Source of the DNA: Sulfuricurvum sp.
Lineage (GTDB): Bacteria > Campylobacterota > Campylobacteria > Campylobacterales > Sulfurimonadaceae
Direction of reading: 5' to 3'
NCBI RefSeq assembly: GCF_028710345.1
Contig: NZ_JAQTUH010000004.1
Coordinates: 157,183-221,182 of the forward strand
Length of the DNA stretch: 64,000 nucleotides
The position numbers and the translations under genes were made by a program. The notes beneath the pieces were generated by a model, which was not told where the DNA came from, did no database searches, and worked only from the letters and a program-made list of their open reading frames with translations. Positions 31,957 through 45,316 of this stretch are shown here, in pieces. Every line of letters begins with the position of its first letter. The first letter of the stretch is position 1.

Positions 31957-32868
31957 ATGATAGATGAAAAAAGGTTAACCCACCTCAAGCAACTGGAAGC
32001 CGAAGCTATCCATATCATGCGTGAAGTGGTAGCAGAGTTTGAAAATCCGGCAATGCTTTATAGCATTGGGAAAGACTCCTCGGTAATGCTACATATTGCC
32101 CAAAAAGCATTTTATCCTGCACCGCCACCATTTCCGCTTGTGCATGTAGATACCATGTGGAAATTTCATGAAATGATTGAATTTCGTGACCAGCGAGCCA
32201 AAGAGGTAGGGATGGATCTGATCGTCTACGTCAATCCACAAGGGAAAGAGATGAATATCAGCCCTTTTGAGCATGGCTCAGCAGTACACACAGACATTAT
32301 GAAAACAGAGGGTCTCAAACAGATGCTTGATATCTACAAATACGATGCTGTATTTGGGGGAGCACGTCGGGATGAAGAAAAAAGTCGGGCCAAAGAACGT
32401 ATTTACTCTTTTCGTGACAAATTTCATCGTTGGGATCCAAAGAATCAGCGCCCTGAATTGTGGAATATCTATAATGGGCGTCATCATAAAGGTGAAAGTA
32501 TTCGTGTATTTCCCCTTTCAAATTGGACAGAACTTGATATTTGGCAATATATTTATTTAGAACAAATTCCTATCCCTTCTCTCTATTTCGCGGCTGAACG
32601 TGAAGTGGTCGAGATGGGTGGAACACTTATCATGGTTGATGATGATCGAATGCCAGAAGAACTTCGAAAAACTGCTAAAAAAGAGCTTGTCCGCTTTCGT
32701 ACGCTTGGATGTTATCCGTTGACGGGTGCGGTAGAATCAAATGCAACCACGCTACCAGAGATTATACAAGAGATGCTTTTAACAACAACTTCTGAACGAC
32801 AGGGTCGATTGATCGATAGCGATTCAACCGGTTCTATGGAAAAGAAAAAAATAGAAGGATATTTTTAA
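31957..32868 (+). CDS. cysD: Sulfate adenylyltransferase subunit 2
   Basis: A 303-residue ATP sulfurylase catalytic subunit that makes adenosine 5'-phosphosulfate (APS) from sulfate and ATP. PP-loop [12 protein letters not shown] lies at about residues 35-46. Other family marks are [48 protein letters not shown] and [16 protein letters not shown]. Length equals E. coli CysD (302). Its stop shares a base with the cysN start (TAATG). Confidence 0.98.
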
Positions 32869-34325
32869 TGGCTCATCAAGGTGATTTAATCGCAAGCAAT
32901 ATCGAAGAATACCTCCATCAACATGAAAACAAGGGATTAATGCGTCTCATAACCTGCGGTAGCGTAGATGATGGGAAAAGTACCCTTATCGGAAGACTTC
33001 TCTATGATTCAAAAATGATTTTTGAGGATCAACTCTCTGCGATCGAAAAAGATTCAAAAAAAGTGGGAACACAAGGTGGGGAGCTTGATCTTGCTCTGCT
33101 AGTAGACGGGTTACAAAGCGAACGAGAGCAAGGGATTACAATTGATGTCGCGTATCGATTTTTTTCAACTGATAAACGAAAATTTATTATCGCTGACACT
33201 CCTGGACATGAACAATATACACGTAATATGGCGACAGGAGCATCTACGGCAGATTTAGCAATCATATTGATTGATGCACGCTATGGTGTTCAAACACAAA
33301 CCCGTCGTCACTCCTATATTGTCCATCTTTTAGGGATAAAACATATTATTGTTGCAATCAATAAAATGGATTTGGTTGACTTTAGCGAATCACGCTTTAA
33401 TGAAATTCGAGAAGAATATACTACTTTATCCAAAGAACTAGGGATCGAAAATCCTATTTACGTCCCAATGTCGGCACTAAATGGTGATAATGTCGTCAAT
33501 GCCAGCGAACAATCGCCGTGGTACAATGGCGAGTGTTTGATGGAAATTCTTGATACACTCGATATTTCAGACAAGAGTGATGCGAAGCCTTTCCGATTTC
33601 CAGTTCAGTGGGTAAATCGTCCGAATTTAAACTTTCGCGGTTTTGCAGGAACTATAGCATCCGGAAGTGTCAAAGTCGGTGATGAAATTACCGTACTCCC
33701 TTCTGGAAAAACGACCCGCATTAAATCGATTATCCCCCCTATGGCAGAAAACAACCTCTCCCTAATGGGTGAAAATAGTGCGATAGAAACCCTCGATGAA
33801 GCTTATGCGCCGATGGCGGTCACATTGACAACAGAAGATGAAGTCGATATTAGCCGAGGAGATATGATTGTCCATGCAGAGCATCTCCCTCGCATCTCTA
33901 ACAGTTTAAAAGTAATGATAGTATGGATGGCGGATGAGCCGATGAGTATAGGAAAAAACTATCATATTAAATCTGCAACAACTGTATTGGGTGGTAGTTT
34001 TGATCATATAAATTATAAAATTGATGTCAATACTTATGAAAAAGCAATCGTCGAAGAGCTTCATCTTAACGACATAGCTTCTTGTAAACTTGTATTAAAC
34101 CGTCCAATCGCAGCAGACCCTTATCGATTAAATCGATCAACCGGAAGTTTTATCGTGATTGATCGTTTAAGCAATAGCACTGTAGGTGCTGGGATGATTG
34201 TCGATGTCAGTCGTCGTGATCAAGATATTGTCCCTAGTGATCACCGCGAATACACACAAGCTGAAGTTGAATTAAATAGATACATCCGAAACCATTTTCC
34301 GGAATGGGGATGCAAGGCTATTTGA
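32868..34325 (+). CDS. cysN: Sulfate adenylyltransferase subunit 1 (GTPase)
   Basis: A 485-residue EF-Tu-like GTPase that drives APS synthesis by CysD. The P-loop is GSVDDGKSTLIGRLL (from residue 31), switch regions include EREQGITIDVAYRFF and IADTPGHEQYTRNMATGAS, and NKMDLVD is the guanine-specificity motif. Two beta-barrel domains follow. It is not fused to an APS kinase domain as in CysNC; the kinase is encoded separately 45 bases downstream. Confidence 0.97.
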   Translation: MAHQGDLIASNIEEYLHQHENKGLMRLITCGSVDDGKSTLIGRLLYDSKMIFEDQLSAIEKDSKKVGTQGGELDLALLVDGLQSEREQGITIDVAYRFFSTDKRKFIIADTPGHEQYTRNMATGASTADLAIILIDARYGVQTQTRRHSYIVHLLGIKHIIVAINKMDLVDFSESRFNEIREEYTTLSKELGIENPIYVPMSALNGDNVVNASEQSPWYNGECLMEILDTLDISDKSDAKPFRFPVQWVNRPNLNFRGFAGTIASGSVKVGDEITVLPSGKTTRIKSIIPPMAENNLSLMGENSAIETLDEAYAPMAVTLTTEDEVDISRGDMIVHAEHLPRISNSLKVMIVWMADEPMSIGKNYHIKSATTVLGGSFDHINYKIDVNTYEKAIVEELHLNDIASCKLVLNRPIAADPYRLNRSTGSFIVIDRLSNSTVGAGMIVDVSRRDQDIVPSDHREYTQAEVELNRYIRNHFPEWGCKAI

Positions 34326-34370
34326 TGTGCATAAAAAAAATCACCCACCTCATTCAAGAAAGTTCTAATA

Positions 34371-34973
34371 ATGTCACACACTAATATTGTATGGCACAAT
34401 CATCAAGTTTCAAACGCTGAGCGTGCAAAAATCAAAAATCAAAAACCCTGCATCCTTTGGTTTACCGGCTTAAGTGGATCTGGTAAATCAACCATTGCCA
34501 ATGCTTTGGAACTGAAACTTTTTGAAATAGGAAAACACACCTATCTGCTTGATGGTGACAATATACGCCATGGGCTCAATAAAGATTTAGCTTTTAATGA
34601 TCATGACCGAATTGAAAATATTCGCCGAATCGGAGAAGTCAGCAAACTCTTTGTTGACGCAGGATTAATAGTCATTACGGCATTTATCTCACCCTTTTGC
34701 TCCGATCGACAAATTGTTCATGATCTGGTTGCAGAGGGAGAATTTATTGAAGTATTTGTTGATACCCCGATAGATATTTGCGAACAAAGAGATCCAAAAG
34801 GGCTCTATACTAAGGCACGGAATGGGGACATCCCCTTTTTTACCGGAATCAGCTCTCCGTATGAAGCTCCTCAAGAGCCACAAATTCATCTTCTTACTGA
34901 AGAACTAGGGATTGAGGGGTGCGTTAGCACTATAATTGATTATTTACAATCCAAAGGATACCTGCATGCTTAA
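34371..34973 (+). CDS. cysC: Adenylylsulfate kinase
   Basis: A 200-residue kinase that phosphorylates APS to PAPS. It has P-loop FTGLSGSGKSTIANALE (residues 31-47), DGDNIRHGLNKDLAFNDHDR and ENIRRIGEVSKLFVDAGLI, and TAFISPFCSDRQ, all CysC signatures. A close relative in the C. jejuni capsule locus acts instead in phosphoramidate synthesis; here adjacency to cysD and cysN and absence of the other phosphoramidate genes support a true APS kinase. PAPS serves sulfate reduction or sulfotransferases. Overlaps cysQ by eight bases. Confidence 0.93.
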   Translation: MSHTNIVWHNHQVSNAERAKIKNQKPCILWFTGLSGSGKSTIANALELKLFEIGKHTYLLDGDNIRHGLNKDLAFNDHDRIENIRRIGEVSKLFVDAGLIVITAFISPFCSDRQIVHDLVAEGEFIEVFVDTPIDICEQRDPKGLYTKARNGDIPFFTGISSPYEAPQEPQIHLLTEELGIEGCVSTIIDYLQSKGYLHA

Positions 34974-35727
34974 TCAAATCAATATCGATGATATCGTAAC
35001 TATCGCTAAACAAGCAGGTGATATTATTATGGATATCTATGCAAAAGATTTCAGTATTGATTACAAAGAAGATCAAAGCCCCCTCACAGAAGCTGACCAA
35101 AAAGCCAATGAATTAATCGTAGAAGGGTTAAGCAATCTATTGTTGAAATTTCCAATTCTTTCGGAAGAGGGGAAAACAATCCCTTTTGAAGAACGAAAAG
35201 AGTGGGAATACTTTTGGATGGTAGACCCGCTGGATGGTACAAAAGAGTTTATAAAAAAGAATGATGAATTTACTGTCAATATTGCTCTAATCCATAATCA
35301 CATCCCAATCTTAGGAGTAGTTTACGCTCCTGCACTGAGTGAGATGTACTGGGCTACACAAGGCAACGGTGCCTATAAAAACGGAATACCCCTTCCTCTC
35401 TACACCAACACCGAATCAGATAAACAGCTTAAAGTAGTAGCAAGTAAATCCCATCTTAGTTCTGAAACACAAGACTATATTGATGATTTGGCCAAAACAA
35501 CCGAGAATATCGAATGCGTCTCTAAGGGAAGTTCATTAAAACTGTGCATGGTAGCAGAAGGGAGTGCAGATGTCTATCCACGTCTTGCACCGACTATGGA
35601 GTGGGATACAGCTGCAGCCGATGCGATTGTACGTGAAGCAGGTAAGATGACATATCAATTTCAAAGTGGCACTGCGATGGAATACAATAAAGAGAACCTT
35701 TTAAATCCTTGGTTTGTTGTTCGTTGA
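34966..35727 (+). CDS. cysQ: 3'(2'),5'-bisphosphate nucleotidase
   Basis: A 253-residue magnesium-dependent phosphatase of the inositol monophosphatase fold that removes the 3' phosphate of PAP, the product left after PAPS is used. Motifs are SPLTEADQKANELI, ILSEEGK, WMVDPLDGTKEFIKKN and APTMEWDTAAADAIVREAG. ATG 34966 was chosen: it starts at MLNQINIDDIV and overlaps the cysC end by eight bases. Its presence after cysC shows the cell handles PAPS turnover. Confidence 0.95.
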   Translation: MLNQINIDDIVTIAKQAGDIIMDIYAKDFSIDYKEDQSPLTEADQKANELIVEGLSNLLLKFPILSEEGKTIPFEERKEWEYFWMVDPLDGTKEFIKKNDEFTVNIALIHNHIPILGVVYAPALSEMYWATQGNGAYKNGIPLPLYTNTESDKQLKVVASKSHLSSETQDYIDDLAKTTENIECVSKGSSLKLCMVAEGSADVYPRLAPTMEWDTAAADAIVREAGKMTYQFQSGTAMEYNKENLLNPWFVVR

Positions 35728-38185: not shown

Positions 38186-38228
38186 TATTGCAAATTCACT
38201 ATATAAGCACTACCTACAGAGATTGTCC

Positions 38229-39209
38229 ATGAGAACGGAACTCCCTCTTGTTACTGTATTGATGGCAACCTATAACGGAGCACGCCATATTTCTGAACAA
38301 ATTGACTCAATATTAGCTCAAACGTATTCAAACATTGAGCTTGTTATTGCGGATGATAGCTCTATGGATGAAACTGTTCCCATTCTCAGATCATATAAGC
38401 AAAAACATCCCAATATCAAGCTCTATATCAATCAAATACGTTTAGGATTCGTCAAAAATTTTGAACAATTACTTCAAAAAGCGGATGGTAAATATTTTGC
38501 ACTGTCGGATCAAGATGATATATGGGATCATGATAAAATATCTATCATGATGCAAGCACTAATCGAAAAAGAGAAAAAAAGACCCGATGCACCCATTATG
38601 ATTCATAGTGATCTAAAAGTGATCGATGAAGTTGGTGCGTTGATATTTCCTTCCTATTCTCTTCATCGGGATTACCATTTTTCAAATCACAAGAATATTC
38701 CAATGATGCTCAGCAAAGGCGGGGTAATGGGTAATACTATACTCCTCAACAATCACCTCAGACAGCTGATCCTCCCATTTGACCCAGATGTAATGCATCA
38801 CGATTATTGGATAGCACTCATTAACGAAATATTCGGTTTTCGTATTAGCCTCAAAGAGACGTTAGTATCCTATAGAATCCATACTCACAACACCAGCAAT
38901 AAAATGCACCTAATATCCAATCAGCACCAAAAAAATAAAAAAAATATTTTGCCATATCAAGATAACAACCGTTATAAAGTATTACGTGGAATATTGCAAC
39001 GCTTTCCCATAGAGAAAGATGACAAACGTCCAATTATAATTTTTTTGAAATACTTACGAGAACAAAAAAATTGGCTGAAATACTATCGACCGCTCTACAA
39101 AGAGGGTTTTATCAAAAACTCTATTCGTACTCATTCAAAATTATTAGGGAGATTTACGCTTGCTTCACTCAAACGAAAACAAGCACTTAAATCTTCAATA
39201 CAATCCTAA
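38229..39209 (+). CDS. Glycosyltransferase family 2, rhamnosyltransferase-like
   Basis: A 326-residue GT-A enzyme: PLVTVLMATYNGARHISEQI, IELVIADDSSMDETVPIL, LGFVKNFEQLLQKADGKYFA and LSDQDDIWDHDKI, the last including the DxD metal site. It resembles transferases annotated as rhamnosyltransferases in capsule and O-antigen loci. The C terminus is basic. ATG 38229 has AGAG seven bases upstream; an earlier TTG at 38223 is less likely. Its stop shares a base with the kpsC N-module start (TAATG). Confidence 0.9.
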   Translation: MRTELPLVTVLMATYNGARHISEQIDSILAQTYSNIELVIADDSSMDETVPILRSYKQKHPNIKLYINQIRLGFVKNFEQLLQKADGKYFALSDQDDIWDHDKISIMMQALIEKEKKRPDAPIMIHSDLKVIDEVGALIFPSYSLHRDYHFSNHKNIPMMLSKGGVMGNTILLNNHLRQLILPFDPDVMHHDYWIALINEIFGFRISLKETLVSYRIHTHNTSNKMHLISNQHQKNKKNILPYQDNNRYKVLRGILQRFPIEKDDKRPIIIFLKYLREQKNWLKYYRPLYKEGFIKNSIRTHSKLLGRFTLASLKRKQALKSSIQS

Positions 39210-40147
39210 TGTTAATCAGTTTTTCACAAACATTATATTCCCGCTTGAAACCGTTTAAAAAATATTTTGCATCTGATTTTAAAATTATTTTCGTTGGGTG
39301 GGGACGCCGTAAGTACGGTGAGTTCGCCAGAAAAATAGCCAAAATATTTAATTTTCCGTTTTTATGTCTCGAAGATGGATTCATCCGGTCTGTTGAAATT
39401 GGGAAAAGTGATTTTGTTTTTTCTATAGTTATAGATGAAAAAGGGATTTATTACGATGCGACAAGAGCCTCAAAACTCGAAGATATCATCAATACGTATG
39501 ATTTTCAATCCGATACCGGATTAATACAAACCGCTTCAGATTCATTAAAATTACTTATAGAATATAATATTACGAAGTACAATCATGCCCCTAATTTTCA
39601 TAAAGCTGATTTAGCAAACGATACCAAAAAACAGATACTGGTTGTTGCTCAAACGGCTGGTGATATGTCTTTAAAATACGGCATGACTGATTCTTATTCC
39701 ACAAATGATCTCCTCGCTATTGCCCGAAAAGAAAATCCAGATGCAACGCTATATCTCAAACTGCACCCCGATGTACTACATGGAATAAAAAAATCCGATA
39801 TTGATTTAAAGCAGATTCACAAAGATTTTACTATTATCAGCGAAGATGTCAATGCACTAACATTGTTGAAATCAATGGATAAAGTTTATACAAAAACCTC
39901 TCAGATGGGATTTGAAGCGTTATTACTTGGTAAAGAAGTTGTCTGTTTTGGTGTTCCATTTTATTCAGGATGGGGGCTGACGGATGATCGCATCCCCTGC
40001 AACCGCAGAGTACGCAGAGTCACTCCCTTGGAACTATTTGCAGCTGCTTATATCTTATACCCTGTATATTACAATCCCTATACCCGTAAAGATTCCGATA
40101 TTATTGACACCATACAAACCATTGTAGCTATCAAAAATGCAAAATAA
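39209..40147 (+). CDS. kpsC: Capsule Kdo transferase, KpsC N-terminal module as a separate gene
   Basis: A 312-residue protein equal to one of the two repeated modules of KpsC, which builds the beta-Kdo linker that attaches group 2 capsules to a lipid. Marks include FVGWGRRKYG, CLEDGFIRSVEIG, YLKLHPDVL, KTSQMGFEALLLGKEVVCFG and VPFYSGWGLTDDR. In the usual KpsC (about 670 residues) two such modules are fused; here the second follows as its own gene overlapping by 11 bases. It ends at VAIKNAK with no sign of decay. Cytoplasmic, membrane-associated. Confidence 0.88.
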   Translation: MLISFSQTLYSRLKPFKKYFASDFKIIFVGWGRRKYGEFARKIAKIFNFPFLCLEDGFIRSVEIGKSDFVFSIVIDEKGIYYDATRASKLEDIINTYDFQSDTGLIQTASDSLKLLIEYNITKYNHAPNFHKADLANDTKKQILVVAQTAGDMSLKYGMTDSYSTNDLLAIARKENPDATLYLKLHPDVLHGIKKSDIDLKQIHKDFTIISEDVNALTLLKSMDKVYTKTSQMGFEALLLGKEVVCFGVPFYSGWGLTDDRIPCNRRVRRVTPLELFAAAYILYPVYYNPYTRKDSDIIDTIQTIVAIKNAK

Positions 40148-41225
40148 CACCTCCAACAGCTATTTTTTTGGATTTTCTATCTGGAAACGTTTACTTATTA
40201 CTATTACACCTTTTTTTGATGTTCAGCCGATTTTTATTAATCCTATTTTCGGAAATAACCATCTCACTTTGGCTCTTAAAAAAAAGATGAACCCCCAAAG
40301 TAGCCTCTATATTTGGGGTAAAAAGACTGTAAGTGCGATAGAGCACTATGCCGTACAACACGGATGTAAAATTTATCATGTCGAAGATGGATTTATACGT
40401 TCTATCTCTTTGGGTTCTGATCTAACACAGCCTTATTCACTCGTGATAGATTCACGTGGAATCTATTTTGACCCTACTTGTGAAAGCGATTTAGAATATA
40501 TTCTTCAAAATCATACTTTTAACGACAACGAAATTGCTCGTGCTAAAAATATTCAACTTTTCTTGATTGAAAAAAAGCTCTCAAAGTACAACGTGTACGA
40601 GAATCGTGCATTAAATTTTCCGACCGACCGAGAAATTATTGTTGTCCCTGGACAAGTTGAAGATGATGCTTCTATACACTATGGAGCCAAAGGGATGAGT
40701 AATTTGGAGCTTTTACGCCAAACACGTGCTAATCGTCCAAATGGTTATATTATTTACAAACCTCATCCGGACGTCTTGGTGGGCAATCGTGTTGGAAAAA
40801 TAGATGATGAAGAGGCTTTGCGTTACTGTGATCGTATTGTAACTGAGGTTGGAATCGATAGCGTACTAAAATATGCAGATGAAGTACATACTATGACATC
40901 CTTGGTAGGATTTGAAGCGTTGATTAGAGGCATTAAAGTTGTCACCTACGGATTACCTTTTTATGCAGGATGGGGCCTAACTATCGATATGCAATCTTGT
41001 AGTCGTCGAAAACGGCAATGTAGGCTCCATGAGCTGGTTGCGGCGACCTATATCCTCTATCCTCTATATATTGACCCCCTAACAAAAAAACGCTGCGAAA
41101 TAGAAGATGTGTTAAGCTTTTTAGATACAGAACGGGCTCATTACAAAAACTCTATTGCTCTTAAGATTAGAAATTGGTTTAGTCGAAAAGTTCAATTGCT
41201 GATTCGAAAACTAAAAGGACTATGA
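40137..41225 (+). CDS. kpsC: Capsule Kdo transferase, KpsC C-terminal module as a separate gene
   Basis: A 362-residue protein, the second KpsC module: SSLYIWGKKTVSAIEHYA, HVEDGFIRSISLGSDLTQPY, IVVPGQVEDDASIHYGAKG, IIYKPHPDVLVGNR, MTSLVGFEALIRGIKVVTYG and LPFYAGWGLTIDM. It ends with a very basic helix that may hold it at the membrane. Each KpsC module adds a Kdo residue of different linkage. It is in a different reading frame from the preceding module, overlapping it by 11 bases, and its stop overlaps the next gene (ATGA). Confidence 0.88.
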   Translation: MQNNTSNSYFFGFSIWKRLLITITPFFDVQPIFINPIFGNNHLTLALKKKMNPQSSLYIWGKKTVSAIEHYAVQHGCKIYHVEDGFIRSISLGSDLTQPYSLVIDSRGIYFDPTCESDLEYILQNHTFNDNEIARAKNIQLFLIEKKLSKYNVYENRALNFPTDREIIVVPGQVEDDASIHYGAKGMSNLELLRQTRANRPNGYIIYKPHPDVLVGNRVGKIDDEEALRYCDRIVTEVGIDSVLKYADEVHTMTSLVGFEALIRGIKVVTYGLPFYAGWGLTIDMQSCSRRKRQCRLHELVAATYILYPLYIDPLTKKRCEIEDVLSFLDTERAHYKNSIALKIRNWFSRKVQLLIRKLKGL

Positions 41226-42346
41226 TGAATGTCAAGAAACGTGTTGTTTACTATCTAAGTGGATTTGATCCTCGCGGAGTACATCACTACTATAGCTTAT
41301 ACAAAGAGAATTTTAATAATCAAATGACAATTAATGGAATGAAAGGAACCGTTTCTCCTCGTAAAAATCTTCATCAGTGGGAAATCGATGCGACTGATCA
41401 AGGAATACATGTTAATACTCTTTACAATTTTTTGAGTTGGGATGACATCATACGTTCTGAATGGTCTTCGGGACTATTAAATTATTATAAGGACTTATTT
41501 TATTGCATCGTTGCCTATCTTTCTAATGGGTTAATTATTAAATATGCAAAAGCTTCTCCAAAACAAATGATAGCAGGTTTATATCCAGGATTCTATTTGT
41601 TAGGTGCTCTCGTAATAGCTATCTACGGAAGCATTTCACTCTATCAGTCTATCGAAGGAATAATAGGGATAGCATCGGGAATAATTTTTTCAATCTTAAC
41701 TATGATGTTGTTTGAAAAAATCGGTAATACAATTGGGGTCTTTTGGCTATTACGTATTTATGCTTTTAGTGTTCGATGGGGTAGAGGGGAAATAGACACT
41801 ATTGAAGAACGAATAAATCATTTTAGTGATGCAATAGCAATACAACTCAATATTGCAGAAGATGTAGATGAAGTTTTATTAATCTCACACAGTGTCGGAA
41901 CTATTTTGGCAGTAAGTGTACTTGCCCGCATATTGGAAAAAGCAGACCATTTGGATAAATTCGGGATGATAACACTAGGTGAATGTATACCATTGGTAAG
42001 TTTTCAACCAAATGCTGATAAATATCGGGCAGAATTACAAAAAATTGCTGAGAATAAAGATATTATATGGGTTGATTATACTGCTCCCATCGATGGAGCG
42101 TGCTTTCCCTTGCATGATTTTATGCAAAGTAGCAGTATTCAACAAAGTGGAATGAATTTACACTATCTTTCACCGAGATTTCATACACTTTTTGATAAAA
42201 TTACGTATGCAAAATTACGCAGAGATTGGTATACAACCCATTTCCTCTACTTGATGTCGACCGAAATATCCGGTGGATACGATTATTATAAAATAAGTGC
42301 GGGTGCTATGAGTATTCGTGATAAAATTGATCATCTAAAGAGTTAA
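41222..42346 (+). CDS. Membrane protein with serine-hydrolase-like motif, function unknown
   Basis: A 374-residue protein I do not recognise at family level. Residues about 118-185 contain two or three hydrophobic helices (GFYLLGALVIAIYGSISLY; IGIASGIIFSILTMMLFEKI). After them VDEVLLISHSVGTILAVSVLA (S-H-S-V-G at 222-226) resembles the nucleophile elbow of alpha/beta hydrolases, with candidate D and H later in IDGACFPLHDFM. It is coupled to kpsC by an ATGA overlap and to the P450 by a one-base gap. A hydrolase acting on lipid or polysaccharide at the membrane is a guess. ATG 41225 is an equally possible start. Confidence 0.65.
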   Translation: MMNVKKRVVYYLSGFDPRGVHHYYSLYKENFNNQMTINGMKGTVSPRKNLHQWEIDATDQGIHVNTLYNFLSWDDIIRSEWSSGLLNYYKDLFYCIVAYLSNGLIIKYAKASPKQMIAGLYPGFYLLGALVIAIYGSISLYQSIEGIIGIASGIIFSILTMMLFEKIGNTIGVFWLLRIYAFSVRWGRGEIDTIEERINHFSDAIAIQLNIAEDVDEVLLISHSVGTILAVSVLARILEKADHLDKFGMITLGECIPLVSFQPNADKYRAELQKIAENKDIIWVDYTAPIDGACFPLHDFMQSSSIQQSGMNLHYLSPRFHTLFDKITYAKLRRDWYTTHFLYLMSTEISGGYDYYKISAGAMSIRDKIDHLKS

Positions 42347-42347
42347 T

Positions 42348-43736
42348 ATGTCATCCTGCCCATTTCATCAACCTTTTTTTCCTCCACCGCTTAAAAATAA
42401 GGCGTCACTACTATTTACTTTTTTTAGAAAAAGACGTTCTTGGCTAGATGGACTGTATGAACGTAGCTATAGCATGAAAATGGGACGGGTAAAAATGCCT
42501 GGACTTGATTTGCATGTAATTAATCAGCCCGATCTTGTTCACCGTATTTTGGTGGATGAAGTGAAAGAGTTTCCGAAAAATCAGCTTTTGGGACATCTGT
42601 TGGAACCGCTATTGGGGGAAAGTATTTTTACGACCAATGGGGAACAATGGAAAAGACAACGTGAAATGCTCAACCCTTCATTCGAGATGACCCGTATTTC
42701 TCATGTCTTTGGGCTCATGAACGATGCGGTACAAGAGATGAAAGATCATCTTCGCGGAGATAACACTGAAAATCATCTCGATATTGATCCCGAAATGACC
42801 TATGTAACGGCAGATATCATCTTTCGAACCATTCTTTCATCACGACTCGATCGTAATGATGCAGTAAAAATTATCGAAGCATTTGTGACATTTCAAGAAG
42901 AGACCGCACGAACCGCAATGAGAACCATGTTTAAAATTCCGGAGTGGCTATGGTTTTTGAGCGGGGAAAACAAACGGATAAAGGCAGGGAACGATATTCG
43001 TGATATCCTCGCGTCCATTATTCGTCCTCGATACGATGCCATCATTGCCGATGATACACCAAATAACAAAGACATCCTCTCATCATTACTCCAAGCGGTG
43101 GATGTTGATAGCGGTGAAAAATTTTCGTTTGAAGAGATACTCGATCAAGTAGCGATGCTTTTTCTTGCAGGACACGAAACATCTGCAAGTGCATTAACAT
43201 GGGCAACTTATTTACTCTCTCTGTATCCCGAGATTCAAGAGCGTGCTTATCATGAAGTGTTAAACATCGCTGGTGAAGATGAATTTAATGCCGATCAGCT
43301 CAAACACATGGAACTAATTACCAACATTTTCAAAGAGACACTCCGCTTATACCCCCCCGTTGGATTTTTTGCACGTGAAAATACGCAAGAGACAACTATG
43401 CGGGACAAAACGATTGCCAAAGGCTCTTCCGTTGTCGTGGCACCATGGCTCATTCACCGACACAAAGAGTTTTGGGAAAACCCAAACGGATTTGATCCGG
43501 ATCGCTTTAGTGATCCAAAATCAATACACAAAGATACCTATCTCCCTTTTGGGATGGGGGCTCGGATTTGTATCGGATCATCTTTTGCGATGCAAGAAGC
43601 GGTATTGATCTTAGCTACCCTCATTCGTGAATTTAAAATAGAGCTCCAAGAGGGCTTTGTTCCGGATGTCGTCGGACGCTTAACGGTACGTTCAGCCAAC
43701 GGAATGAAAATTATTTTGAAACGGCGTACTCACTGA
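42348..43736 (+). CDS. Cytochrome P450
   Basis: A 462-residue haem monooxygenase with all P450 hallmarks: I-helix LFLAGHETSASALTWA (A274-S279), K-helix KETLRLYPPVGFF (E330 and R333), meander FDPDRFSDP, and haem loop PFGMGARICIGSSFAM with ligand C408. There is no N-terminal membrane anchor, so it is soluble. P450s are rare in Campylobacterota, but from memory C. jejuni has one (Cj1411c) also beside kpsC/kpsS. No ferredoxin or reductase partner is encoded nearby. It is tightly packed, one base after the previous gene and sharing one base with the next, so a role in capsule or its lipid is plausible; substrate unknown. Confidence 0.96.
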   Translation: MSSCPFHQPFFPPPLKNKASLLFTFFRKRRSWLDGLYERSYSMKMGRVKMPGLDLHVINQPDLVHRILVDEVKEFPKNQLLGHLLEPLLGESIFTTNGEQWKRQREMLNPSFEMTRISHVFGLMNDAVQEMKDHLRGDNTENHLDIDPEMTYVTADIIFRTILSSRLDRNDAVKIIEAFVTFQEETARTAMRTMFKIPEWLWFLSGENKRIKAGNDIRDILASIIRPRYDAIIADDTPNNKDILSSLLQAVDVDSGEKFSFEEILDQVAMLFLAGHETSASALTWATYLLSLYPEIQERAYHEVLNIAGEDEFNADQLKHMELITNIFKETLRLYPPVGFFARENTQETTMRDKTIAKGSSVVVAPWLIHRHKEFWENPNGFDPDRFSDPKSIHKDTYLPFGMGARICIGSSFAMQEAVLILATLIREFKIELQEGFVPDVVGRLTVRSANGMKIILKRRTH

Positions 43737-44095
43737 TGAAAGAACGTTTAGCCGGATTTCTCCTTATGTGTGCAGTCGTACCGCTCGCAATATTGGGATA
43801 TTTGATTATTTGCTACGCAGGCTTTATCGGCAAGCCCGCACGCGGTCGAGCGGGGGTGAGAGCACTCGATCATTTTGTCAATGCAACCGTCTTTAATGGT
43901 TATGCGTGGGAATCGGTATCATCTCATGCTTGGCGAGAACGCAATACAAAATGGTGGGCAGCATGGGTTATAAAAATAACGGATGCTTTTCAAAAAGATC
44001 ATTGTATGCGTGCCAATAAACGGGAACAACCGATAATAGATCTAATGCTTCATAAAGGTTTGCACGATCAAACCATCGGCAAAAAGAGACAATAA
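43736..44095 (+). CDS. Small membrane-anchored protein of the capsule operon, unknown function
   Basis: A 119-residue protein with one N-terminal membrane helix (FLLMCAVVPLAILGYLIICY) and a basic/aromatic remainder (NGYAWESVSSHAWRERNTKW; VIKITDAFQKDHCMRANKRE). No family recognised. It starts on the last base of the P450 stop (TGATG) and ends three bases before kpsS. The unbroken packing suggests a structural or partner role for the P450 or for KpsS. Confidence 0.72.
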   Translation: MKERLAGFLLMCAVVPLAILGYLIICYAGFIGKPARGRAGVRALDHFVNATVFNGYAWESVSSHAWRERNTKWWAAWVIKITDAFQKDHCMRANKREQPIIDLMLHKGLHDQTIGKKRQ

Positions 44096-44098
44096 ACC

Positions 44099-45316
44099 AT
44101 GGTTCGTAGAGGTTTACAATCATTTAAAGATAAAAAAGTTGTTTTATTGCAAGGTCCTGTTGGCCCTTTTTTCAAGAACCTTGGTTACGATTTAGAAAAT
44201 GTCGGTGCAGAAGTTTACAAAATCAACTTTAACGGAGGAGATTGGTTTTTTTCTTCAGACAAAAACATCGTTAATTTTAGAAACCATTTTGACCAATGGG
44301 AATCCTACTTTACCAATTTTATCGAAACATATAACATTGATACTGTCATTTTTTTTGGAGATTGTCGCAAATACCATCAAGTTTCACATAAAGTTGCCGA
44401 TTACAAAGGGTTAGATATTGGTGTGTTTGAAGAGGGTTATGTCCGTCCCGATTACATCACATTTGAAGAATTTGGGGTAAATGGATATTCTCAACTTTCA
44501 CGAGACCCACAATTTTATAAATCGTTATCGGAAGAGGAATTTTTGGCGCCAGACCCAATTCCTGTAGGCAATACCTTTTGGTGCATGGCATCGCATGCAG
44601 TTCTTTACTATTTTTTTAGTGCCGTACTTTATCCGGTATTTCACCGATATACCCATCATAGACCTCTCAACCCTTTCGAAACATTTTATTGGATTCGATC
44701 TCTTTGGCGCAAACAATACTATAAAATGAAAGAATATGGAATGCAAATGGACTTGATAGAGCACCATTCTAAGAGCTACTATTTGGCACCGCTTCAAATT
44801 TCAACAGATGCACAAGTGCGCGAACATTCTGATTTTAGTTCCGTTGAGAATTTTATTGAAAGAATAATAGGCTCTTTTTCAGCTAATGCTCCCAAAGACA
44901 CCTTACTAGTAATCAAACACCATCCTCTAGATCGTGGTTATCATGACTACTCCTCCTTTATACGACGCTTAGCTCATCATCATAATGTAGCCACTAGGGT
45001 ACGTTATATTCACGATCAACACCTTCCATCTCTCCTAGAACATGCGCGCGGTGTAGTCATGATCAATTCAACCGTAGGGCTTTCTGCTATACATCATAAT
45101 GCACCAGTATTGGCATGCGGAACCGCTATTTATGATTTTGAAGGAATGACCTATCAAGGTTCAATTCACTCATTTTGGAATGCAGCAGAGACATTTAAAA
45201 TCAACCGAGATTTATATCATCGATTTCGTGGCTATGTTATTCGAAGCAACCAAATTAATGGTAGCTTTTATCGATGTTTAAACCATAGTAATCTTCACTC
45301 TGGCGTATCTTGGTAA
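44099..45316 (+). CDS. kpsS: Capsule Kdo transferase KpsS
   Basis: A 405-residue protein. Family marks are VVLLQGPVGPFFKNLGYDL near the N terminus, NFNGGDWFF, VIFFGDCRKYHQVSH, GVFEEGYVRPDYITFEEFGV, LVIKHHPLDRGYHDYSSFI and GVVMINSTVGLSAIHHNAPV. KpsS adds the first Kdo to lyso-phosphatidylglycerol as the lipid anchor of group 2-type capsules, after which KpsC extends it. Last gene of the capsule block; ABC exporter genes (kpsMT, kpsED) are not in the window. Confidence 0.95.
   Translation: MVRRGLQSFKDKKVVLLQGPVGPFFKNLGYDLENVGAEVYKINFNGGDWFFSSDKNIVNFRNHFDQWESYFTNFIETYNIDTVIFFGDCRKYHQVSHKVADYKGLDIGVFEEGYVRPDYITFEEFGVNGYSQLSRDPQFYKSLSEEEFLAPDPIPVGNTFWCMASHAVLYYFFSAVLYPVFHRYTHHRPLNPFETFYWIRSLWRKQYYKMKEYGMQMDLIEHHSKSYYLAPLQISTDAQVREHSDFSSVENFIERIIGSFSANAPKDTLLVIKHHPLDRGYHDYSSFIRRLAHHHNVATRVRYIHDQHLPSLLEHARGVVMINSTVGLSAIHHNAPVLACGTAIYDFEGMTYQGSIHSFWNAAETFKINRDLYHRFRGYVIRSNQINGSFYRCLNHSNLHSGVSW

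Follow-up and report, generated by a model that had tools for sequence, protein, structure and literature searches.

A cytochrome P450 in a capsule-linker operon

The window, that is, the whole 64,000-nt stretch of Sulfuricurvum sp. DNA that was analysed, harbours a coupled run of genes (Table 1) in which a glycosyltransferase family 2 gene is followed, in the order of the window ORFs, by kpsC-N, kpsC-C, HYD, P450, SMP and kpsS. The glycosyltransferase gene overlaps kpsC-N by 1 nt in ORF coordinates and likely belongs to the operon, outside the conserved module. Overlaps of 4 nt (kpsC-C and HYD) and 1 nt (P450 and SMP) were found, with gaps of 1 and 3 nt elsewhere. The first-pass annotation, made from the letters alone, had listed the HYD, P450 and SMP ORFs and their base-to-base coupling, and both are present as described; it had however placed the P450 between the two kpsC modules, whereas by the gene order above its real position is between the split kpsC and kpsS.

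Table 1. Genes of the coupled run, with window coordinates and the basis of each assignment
Feature	Coordinates	Strand	Basis
Glycosyltransferase family 2 (first gene of the run)	38223..39209	+	Pfam Glycos_transf_2 1.9e-24
kpsC-N, N-terminal beta-Kdo transferase module of KpsC, separate polypeptide	39209..40147	+	PF05159 3.2e-44
kpsC-C, C-terminal beta-Kdo transferase module of KpsC, separate polypeptide	40137..41225	+	PF05159 1.2e-40
HYD, putative membrane-embedded alpha/beta serine hydrolase	41222..42346	+	conservation, fold model, hydropathy
P450, cytochrome P450, assigned to CYP172 family, 462 aa	42348..43736	+	Pfam p450 302 bits; motifs
SMP, small membrane protein, 119 aa	43736..44095	+	conserved cassette member; hydropathy
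kpsS, beta-Kdo transferase initiating the capsule linker on lipid	44099..45316	+	PF05159 4.6e-80

Against full-length Campylobacter jejuni KpsC as the reference, the two KpsC polypeptides align best with residues 34-315 (47-49% identity) and 320-652 (47% identity), respectively. KpsS is 41-43% identical to C. jejuni KpsS and scores 447 bits against the NCBIfam KpsS equivalog model, below its 600-bit cut-off. By Pfam and alignment, KpsS and both Kdo-transferase modules of KpsC, which constitute the KpsC/KpsS pathway of ABC-transporter (group 2) capsules, are present in one operon, and the split of KpsC is shared with Thermosulfurimonas, from which such separate modules are known (PMC10148158). 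For the KpsM-type ABC-2 exporter, a single homologue was found in the genome (C12:34360), 37% identical to a KpsM-like protein of Helicobacter, ABC-2 proteins being common.

The P450, its hydrolase partner and the small membrane protein

The P450 is complete, in line with the first-pass annotation: the Pfam match extends over residues 44-436, the heme motif FGMGARICIG occupies residues 401-410 with Cys408 as ligand, the ExxR motif is E330-TL-R333 and the I-helix motif AGHET starts at residue 274. It is the sole P450 of its genome, as found by genome search, and is 60-62% identical to the C. jejuni capsule-locus P450s over about 455-460 residues, which by the customary rule of at least about 40% identity would assign it to CYP172, the dominant epsilonproteobacterial P450 family. 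Among solved structures, its closest sequence relatives are CYP97, CYP102 (BM3) and CYP4, the substrates of which are fatty acids or carotenoids; in contrast to these, it has no fused reductase and, by hydropathy, no N-terminal membrane anchor helix. In agreement with the first-pass annotation, no redox partner is encoded here: the window lacks a flavodoxin, and no ferredoxin gene adjoins the P450.

HYD harbours a probable Ser-Asp-His triad (S224, D285 or D291, and H340) that is invariant across phyla (31 and 29 sequences), while one Thalassolituus copy carries Cys in place of S224. A two-helix membrane hairpin is predicted at about residues 113-171 by hydropathy and by the structure model (pLDDT 94), and the modelled chain would adopt an alpha/beta-hydrolase fold nearest to that of lipid-acting enzymes, the closest solved structures being the DDHD domain of Nir2 (Z 11.6), Tle3 (Z 10.8) and PGAP1 (Z 10), among many matches at Z 8-11.6 that are nearly all alpha/beta hydrolases. 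With Nir2, PGAP1, Tle3 and LYPLAL1 the model has in common the fold (Z 10-11.6) and a conserved Ser/Asp/His pattern, but the hairpin inserted ahead of the nucleophile strand sets it apart and sequence similarity is negligible (6-16% identity), so that the predicted likeness to DDHD and PGAP1 is at the level of fold only. A PDB sequence search with HYD gave no match, Foldseek no significant one (best E 0.09), and Pfam only weak, sub-threshold matches.

SMP consists of a single N-terminal membrane helix (hydropathy peak at residues 8-26) and a very conserved soluble part with SSHAWR and HC motifs; at 61-91% identity across phyla, it is the best conserved part of the module. By profile search its core is common to phrog_3342 and phrog_34710 (E down to 5e-7), phage small-protein families of unknown function, although tblastn with SMP among phages gave no match. 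The one phage-type copy examined (L212) lies beside lysis-type genes and is without P450 or HYD partners. The SMP structure model (pLDDT 75, pTM 0.47) was too weak for a fold search.

Distribution of the three-gene unit and its link to KpsC/KpsS

A CYP172-type P450 like that of the window was found in 67 of 397 Campylobacterota genomes, and in each of the 67 loci it sits between HYD and SMP in an invariant unit of three genes, HYD-P450-SMP, of the same order and strand, with intergenic spacing of ≤17 nt and ≤7 nt. Since HYD and SMP are invariant partners, a P450 acting alone as the unit was ruled out. Two other candidates were rejected: the remaining P450-like matches in Campylobacterota (L069-L071, L101-L104), considered as P450s away from capsule genes, have diverged in sequence and are accompanied by neither HYD nor SMP, and in a genome considered for another oxygenase in place of the P450 (G264) only an orphan SMP was seen, some 9 kb away from kpsC/kpsS, with no HYD or P450.

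The KpsC/KpsS family is present in all 67 P450-positive genomes versus 45 of the 330 others (P value 5e-46, Fisher test across the 397 genomes, relatedness not corrected), and the P450 in none of the 285 Campylobacterota genomes without that family. Genes of kps lie within the regions of about 18 kb around 57 of the 67 copies, directly adjacent in 32, while 10 copies, one at a contig end, have none in these flanks. The repeated P450/kpsC/kpsS linkage proposed in the first-pass annotation thus holds, and P450s of this type are not mostly located away from capsule genes. The module is nevertheless optional among KpsC/KpsS genomes, as 15 Campylobacterota genomes with strong KpsC/KpsS matches have no P450, and the genes that flank it vary among Campylobacterota loci.

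The distribution of HYD-P450, with or without SMP, extends to Beta-, Gamma- and Alphaproteobacteria and to Verrucomicrobiota. In a mixed set from outside Campylobacterota, 32 of 33 HYD genomes carry kpsC/kpsS genes; for Burkholderiaceae, the Kps family is found in 10 of 11 HYD-positive versus 8 of 139 HYD-negative genomes. Physical linkage to kps was seen in Beta- and Gammaproteobacteria (L185-L190; gammaproteobacterial L109 and L112-L114), and on a Polaromonas plasmid the module adjoins a capsule biosynthesis gene; Zobellella and Oceanisphaera are among the carriers of a linked module. The alphaproteobacterial HYD-P450 pair is without SMP and not beside kps, and 3 of 10 HYD genomes of Sphingomonadaceae lack kps. 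Neighbours in alpha- and betaproteobacteria include a fatty-acid desaturase, an AMP-binding ligase and GT21- and GT28-type glycosyltransferases. When mapped onto a KpsS tree, the cassette requires a minimum of ten gains or losses, so that a single inherited accident does not explain the association. Association of the module with the capsule is strongly supported.

A P450 beside kpsC/kpsS in C. jejuni, mentioned in the first-pass annotation, was indeed published in 2013 as Cj1411c, and that report already establishes the core P450-capsule link (PMC3784454). There, deletion lowers capsule, the phenotype is restored on reconstitution, and LOS staining is also reduced, which suggests a wider envelope effect; 83% of the enzyme is in membranes, its CO spectrum shows the 450-nm complex, and its heme spectrum is shifted by membrane (inner-membrane) but not cytosolic fractions (PMC3784454). 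Cj1411c (CYP1411c) resembles the window P450 in family, in its position beside kpsC/kpsS and in its HYD and SMP neighbours; in C. jejuni, however, the module is located after kpsS, whereas in the window kpsC is split in two and the module lies between kpsC and kpsS. The portion of the 2013 report available makes no mention of HYD, SMP or other phyla (PMC3784454). Literature searches returned a SNP table only for Cj1410c/Cj1412c, nothing relevant joining P450 and KpsS, and nothing on CYP172A1. New here, and missed in the first-pass annotation, are the HYD-P450-SMP unit, as opposed to a lone P450, and its spread to other phyla.

Possible remodelling of the capsule lipid anchor

Capsules exported by ABC transporters are generally regarded as conserved at their lipid end, and we know of no origin assigned to the lyso form of the capsule lipid. 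In the reading that we favour, at a probability of roughly 0.52, HYD-P450-SMP serves the KpsC/KpsS capsule pathway as an accessory module by altering the acyl portion of the membrane phospholipid that KpsS uses to begin the linker; oxidation of the lipid anchor is our best guess. The following scheme, from the lipid substrate and the sequence of reactions to the electron donor and the part played by SMP, is our inference. HYD, its active site beside the membrane hairpin, would remove or exchange an acyl chain of the phospholipid; the membrane-bound P450 would put oxygen into an acyl chain, using electrons from a housekeeping flavodoxin or ferredoxin, with SMP perhaps holding or presenting the P450 and its substrate at the membrane; and KpsS and KpsC would add Kdo to the remodelled lipid.

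Remodelling of the anchor is favoured by several lipid hints (the HYD fold matches, the CYP97, CYP102 and CYP4 relatives, and the desaturase, ligase and glycosyltransferase neighbours) and by the fixed gene order and Kps co-occurrence within and beyond Campylobacterota. Against it, the E. coli capsule is (lyso)PG-linked, and to our knowledge E. coli-type group 2 systems contain no P450, membrane hydrolase or SMP. Remodelling of the anchor is, on the other side, consistent with the lowered capsule of the Cj1411c mutant (PMC3784454) and with the action of KpsS on (lyso)phosphatidylglycerol (PMC10148158). Yet C. jejuni has the full module while diacyl glycerol phosphate is given as its anchor, and the available part of that source notes neither a hydroxylated nor a lyso form (PMC11800397). 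The reduced LOS stain (PMC3784454), the alphaproteobacterial pairs without SMP and away from kps, the optional presence of the module among KpsC/KpsS genomes and the lack of a significant Foldseek match for HYD also count against it. Of the undescribed oxidative step proposed in the first-pass annotation, the substrate is indeed undescribed, but a role in the capsule had been reported with the Cj1411c deletion (PMC3784454).

A clearly less probable alternative is general remodelling of inner- or outer-membrane lipids, yielding oxygenated or chain-exchanged phospholipids, with the capsule hit via its anchor and export. The joint decrease of capsule and LOS staining (PMC3784454), the alphaproteobacterial pairs away from kps, and the desaturase and fatty-acid ligase neighbours would all fit, but near-confinement to KpsC/KpsS genomes (67/67, 10/11 and 32/33) is not required of a general lipid enzyme and counts against it.

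It is improbable that the target of the P450 is the capsule glycan or Kdo linker instead of a lipid. While the position between kpsC and kpsS, the products of which add Kdo, and the glycosyltransferases nearby point that way, the module is unchanged where glycan genes differ in its varying flanks, HYD and SMP are membrane proteins, and the nearest solved P450s act, as is generally known, on carotenoids and fatty acids. The membrane location of the C. jejuni enzyme and its spectral response to membrane fractions argue likewise (PMC3784454). Slightly less probable still is a separate hydroxylated, sophorolipid-like glycolipid (P450, glycosyltransferase and esterase) that would be secreted or inserted with the capsule: in Betaproteobacteria a GT28/EryCIII-type glycosyltransferase, annotated for lipid glycosylation, is the commonest extra neighbour of an HYD-P450-SMP-HYD array, and GT21-type genes lie beside the module in Zavarzinia and Methylobacillus, but in Campylobacterota such an enzyme is not a constant companion of the module, which is otherwise the same there. 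That the module merely hitchhikes with the capsule genes and has no functional link to them is very improbable despite the 10 of 67 copies with no kps gene nearby, as co-occurrence holds where the module is unlinked and across the repeated gains or losses, and P450 deletion has a restorable capsule phenotype (PMC3784454).

Throughout a large bacterial subset to which C. jejuni belongs, the module comes strictly with KpsC/KpsS; this points to a variant anchor and identifies three genes for it. Among their products SMP, more conserved across phyla than HYD or P450, represents an uncharacterised family of clear importance. The single-gene phenotype of 2013 thereby becomes a defined pathway question, with P450 partners findable by genetics. 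More tentatively, many bacteria with Kdo-linked capsules, among them Campylobacter, sulfur oxidisers and Proteobacteria, may build the capsule on an oxygenated or acyl-exchanged phospholipid made by this module. If so, capsule anchors would include a second class that depends on oxygen, and SMP would represent a P450-associated membrane protein of a new kind.

A three-gene unit within the kps operon

Seven genes of the window follow one another in a single run with hardly any intergenic space. The cytochrome P450 (CYP172 family) among them, described as complete in the first-pass annotation, indeed retains all of its motifs (see table). A genome-wide search found no second P450, and on the P450 tree it clusters with Sulfuricurvum, a free-living sulfur oxidiser. 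A sulfate-activation set immediately precedes the glycosyltransferase and kps genes; similar-looking genes (judged from sequence starts only) adjoin kpsC/kpsS at two other loci (L208:5668-13282 and L210:15-5810), and two sulfotransferase-like ORFs were recognized by eye at L208 18184-19787. The sulfate-activation set beside kps genes, together with these ORFs, suggests a sulfated capsule.

Genes of the kps region in the window
Feature	Coordinates	Strand	Remarks
Sulfate-activation set	31957-35727		cysD/PAPS-reductase type, cysN-type GTPase, APS kinase, cysQ-type phosphatase (Pfam)
GT2	38223-39209	+	
kpsC-N	39209-40147	+	separate polypeptide; aligns to first half of C. jejuni KpsC
kpsC-C	40137-41225	+	separate polypeptide; aligns to second half of C. 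jejuni KpsC
HYD (membrane alpha/beta serine hydrolase)	41222-42346	+	
P450	42348-43736	+	Pfam 302 bits; C408, E330/R333, AGHET
SMP (small membrane protein)	43736-44095	+	
kpsS	44099-45316	+	aligns to C. jejuni KpsS

Searched with the Pfam p450 model, 397 Campylobacterota genomes gave 72 hits above cut-off, 67 of them long matches of the window P450's family. The unit comprises three genes, HYD-P450-SMP, an order kept on a single strand in all 67 copies, with at most 17 nt from HYD to P450 and at most 7 nt from P450 to SMP. Searching Campylobacterota with SMP alone recovered the same 67 genomes, one genome with an orphan SMP and two weak matches (one in a prophage). The orphan (L208:14545-14916) is well conserved, has neither HYD nor P450 with it, lies ~9 kb from kpsC/kpsS and may represent either a decayed module or an independent role of SMP. 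Identity to the window proteins within the phylum is 61-80% for SMP, 56-81% for P450 and 34-57% for HYD; judged by these values, SMP is thus the most constrained member.

Association with KpsC/KpsS and the C. jejuni precedent

The repeated linkage of P450 with kpsC/kpsS noted earlier was borne out: of the 67 copies, 57 have Kps-family (PF05159) genes somewhere in the ~18 kb examined around them, 32 at a distance of no more than 200 bases; in a further, Helicobacter copy (L053), the module adjoins an ABC-2 exporter gene. PF05159 is present in 67/67 module genomes versus 45/330 others (66/67 versus 15/330 for strong matches), in a sample where some genomes may be incomplete. Therefore, the module predicts KpsC/KpsS almost perfectly, yet KpsC/KpsS does not require the module. 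The sole module genome without a strong match (G291) has a weaker one and carries its module at a contig end. Fisher values for the co-occurrence are extreme and ignore kinship.

The P450 that the first-pass annotation places beside kpsC/kpsS in C. jejuni is Cj1411c. According to a 2013 report (PMC3784454), it is a Cys-ligated heme protein with 83% in membrane fractions; dithionite alone did not reduce it, and incubation with inner membranes shifted its spin state. Its deletion lowered Alcian-blue staining of capsule, and also of LOS, and reduced serum survival and invasion, while reconstitution brought staining back. P450-capsule linkage and capsule role are therefore already known, and the oxidative step deemed undescribed is so for its substrate only. 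Among Epsilonproteobacteria CYP172 is given as the dominant P450 family, and Gammaproteobacteria have it too (PMC9148083). For the neighbours Cj1412c and Cj1410c, the literature search returned nothing except one SNP table.

Distribution beyond Campylobacterota

An HYD profile scan over 84,980 species genomes found relatives in Gammaproteobacteria (Zobellella, Oceanisphaera), Betaproteobacteria (Ideonella, Methylobacillus and others), Alphaproteobacteria (Sphingomonas, Parasphingopyxis, Zavarzinia) and Verrucomicrobiota MAGs. In most of them P450 directly follows HYD, and SMP comes next in Gamma- and many Betaproteobacteria; the alphaproteobacterial HYD-P450 pairs at the loci examined have no SMP. 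SMP-bearing P450s are grouped on the P450 tree (2 changes versus 22 with shuffled labels).

The Kps family occurs in 32 of 33 HYD genomes, of unstated completeness, outside Campylobacterota. Among Burkholderiaceae (E <= 1e-20) it is found in 10/11 genomes with HYD against a base rate of 18/150, and in the family of Sphingomonas sp. Root710 in 7/10 HYD carriers and 40/149 overall, the three Kps-less carriers having, respectively, HYD without P450, a locus cut by a contig end, and HYD-P450. The cassette adjoins kpsC/kpsS in 6 of 11 Burkholderiaceae loci read (L185-L190), and on a Polaromonas plasmid a capsule biosynthesis gene stands in the same row. Cassette presence on the KpsS tree requires at least 10 gains or losses, thus the co-occurrence was renewed many times; kinship is handled in these associations solely through such tree counts.

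Variant arrangements were also observed. At six betaproteobacterial loci (L148, L152, L164, L190, L192, L203), P450-SMP is flanked by two HYD copies, often adjoined by a GT28/EryCIII-type lipid glycosyltransferase gene, and at L188:4524-7330 a tandem pair of P450 genes from one module lies between kpsC-HYD and SMP. HYD relatives without P450 (L161 and L162, Methylobacillus; L205, Methylorubrum plasmid; L206-L207, Rhizobiales plasmids) pair with a glycosyltransferase or isoprenylcysteine-methyltransferase-like gene and, from these neighbours, read as members of a broader hydrolase family whose partners vary.

Protein features and a putative lipid target

The predicted HYD structure (pLDDT 94) shows an alpha/beta-hydrolase fold in which an insertion ahead of the nucleophile strand forms two long membrane-type helices. 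H223-S224-x-G226, D285, D291 and H340 are among the residues kept all the way from Campylobacter to Sphingomonas. By VIA-align its nearest fold is the DDHD domain of Nir2 (Z 11.6, rmsd 4.6, 246 aligned), followed by the T6SS phospholipase Tle3 (Z 10.8), LYPLAL1 (Z 10.1) and the GPI deacylase PGAP1 (Z 10.0). As Foldseek alone returned no significant match for the model, the predicted assignment is secure at superfamily level only. The solved chains closest to P450 in sequence are those of CYP97, CYP102 and CYP4. SMP combines a single hydrophobic helix with an invariant soluble core common to phage families phrog_3342/34710 of unknown function; in a same-genus genome, an SMP-core protein lies in a prophage (L212:8487-8750), where its neighbours are small membrane ORFs and an endolysin-like ORF.

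E. coli KpsS adds Kdo to (lyso)phosphatidylglycerol (PMC10148158, PMC7694667), and the C. jejuni capsule anchor is described as diacyl glycerol phosphate (PMC11800397). Module neighbours in other phyla include fatty-acid desaturase, AMP-binding ligase and GT21/GT28-type genes. Together with such neighbours, a set of three membrane proteins accompanying KpsC/KpsS (lipase-like HYD, P450 and SMP) points to an acyl lipid rather than a glycan as target. A more general lipid role of the module may also apply, given that the C. jejuni deletion affected LOS and that the alphaproteobacterial HYD-P450 pairs are unlinked to kps. In the proposed mechanism, HYD would remove or exchange an acyl group of the capsule's anchor lipid and P450 would insert oxygen into it, with electrons drawn from general carriers. 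The likeliest candidate donors are the single flavodoxin of the window's genome and a 2Fe-2S ferredoxin, whose genes lie ~1 kb apart on a contig other than that of P450 (C5:77286-78915).
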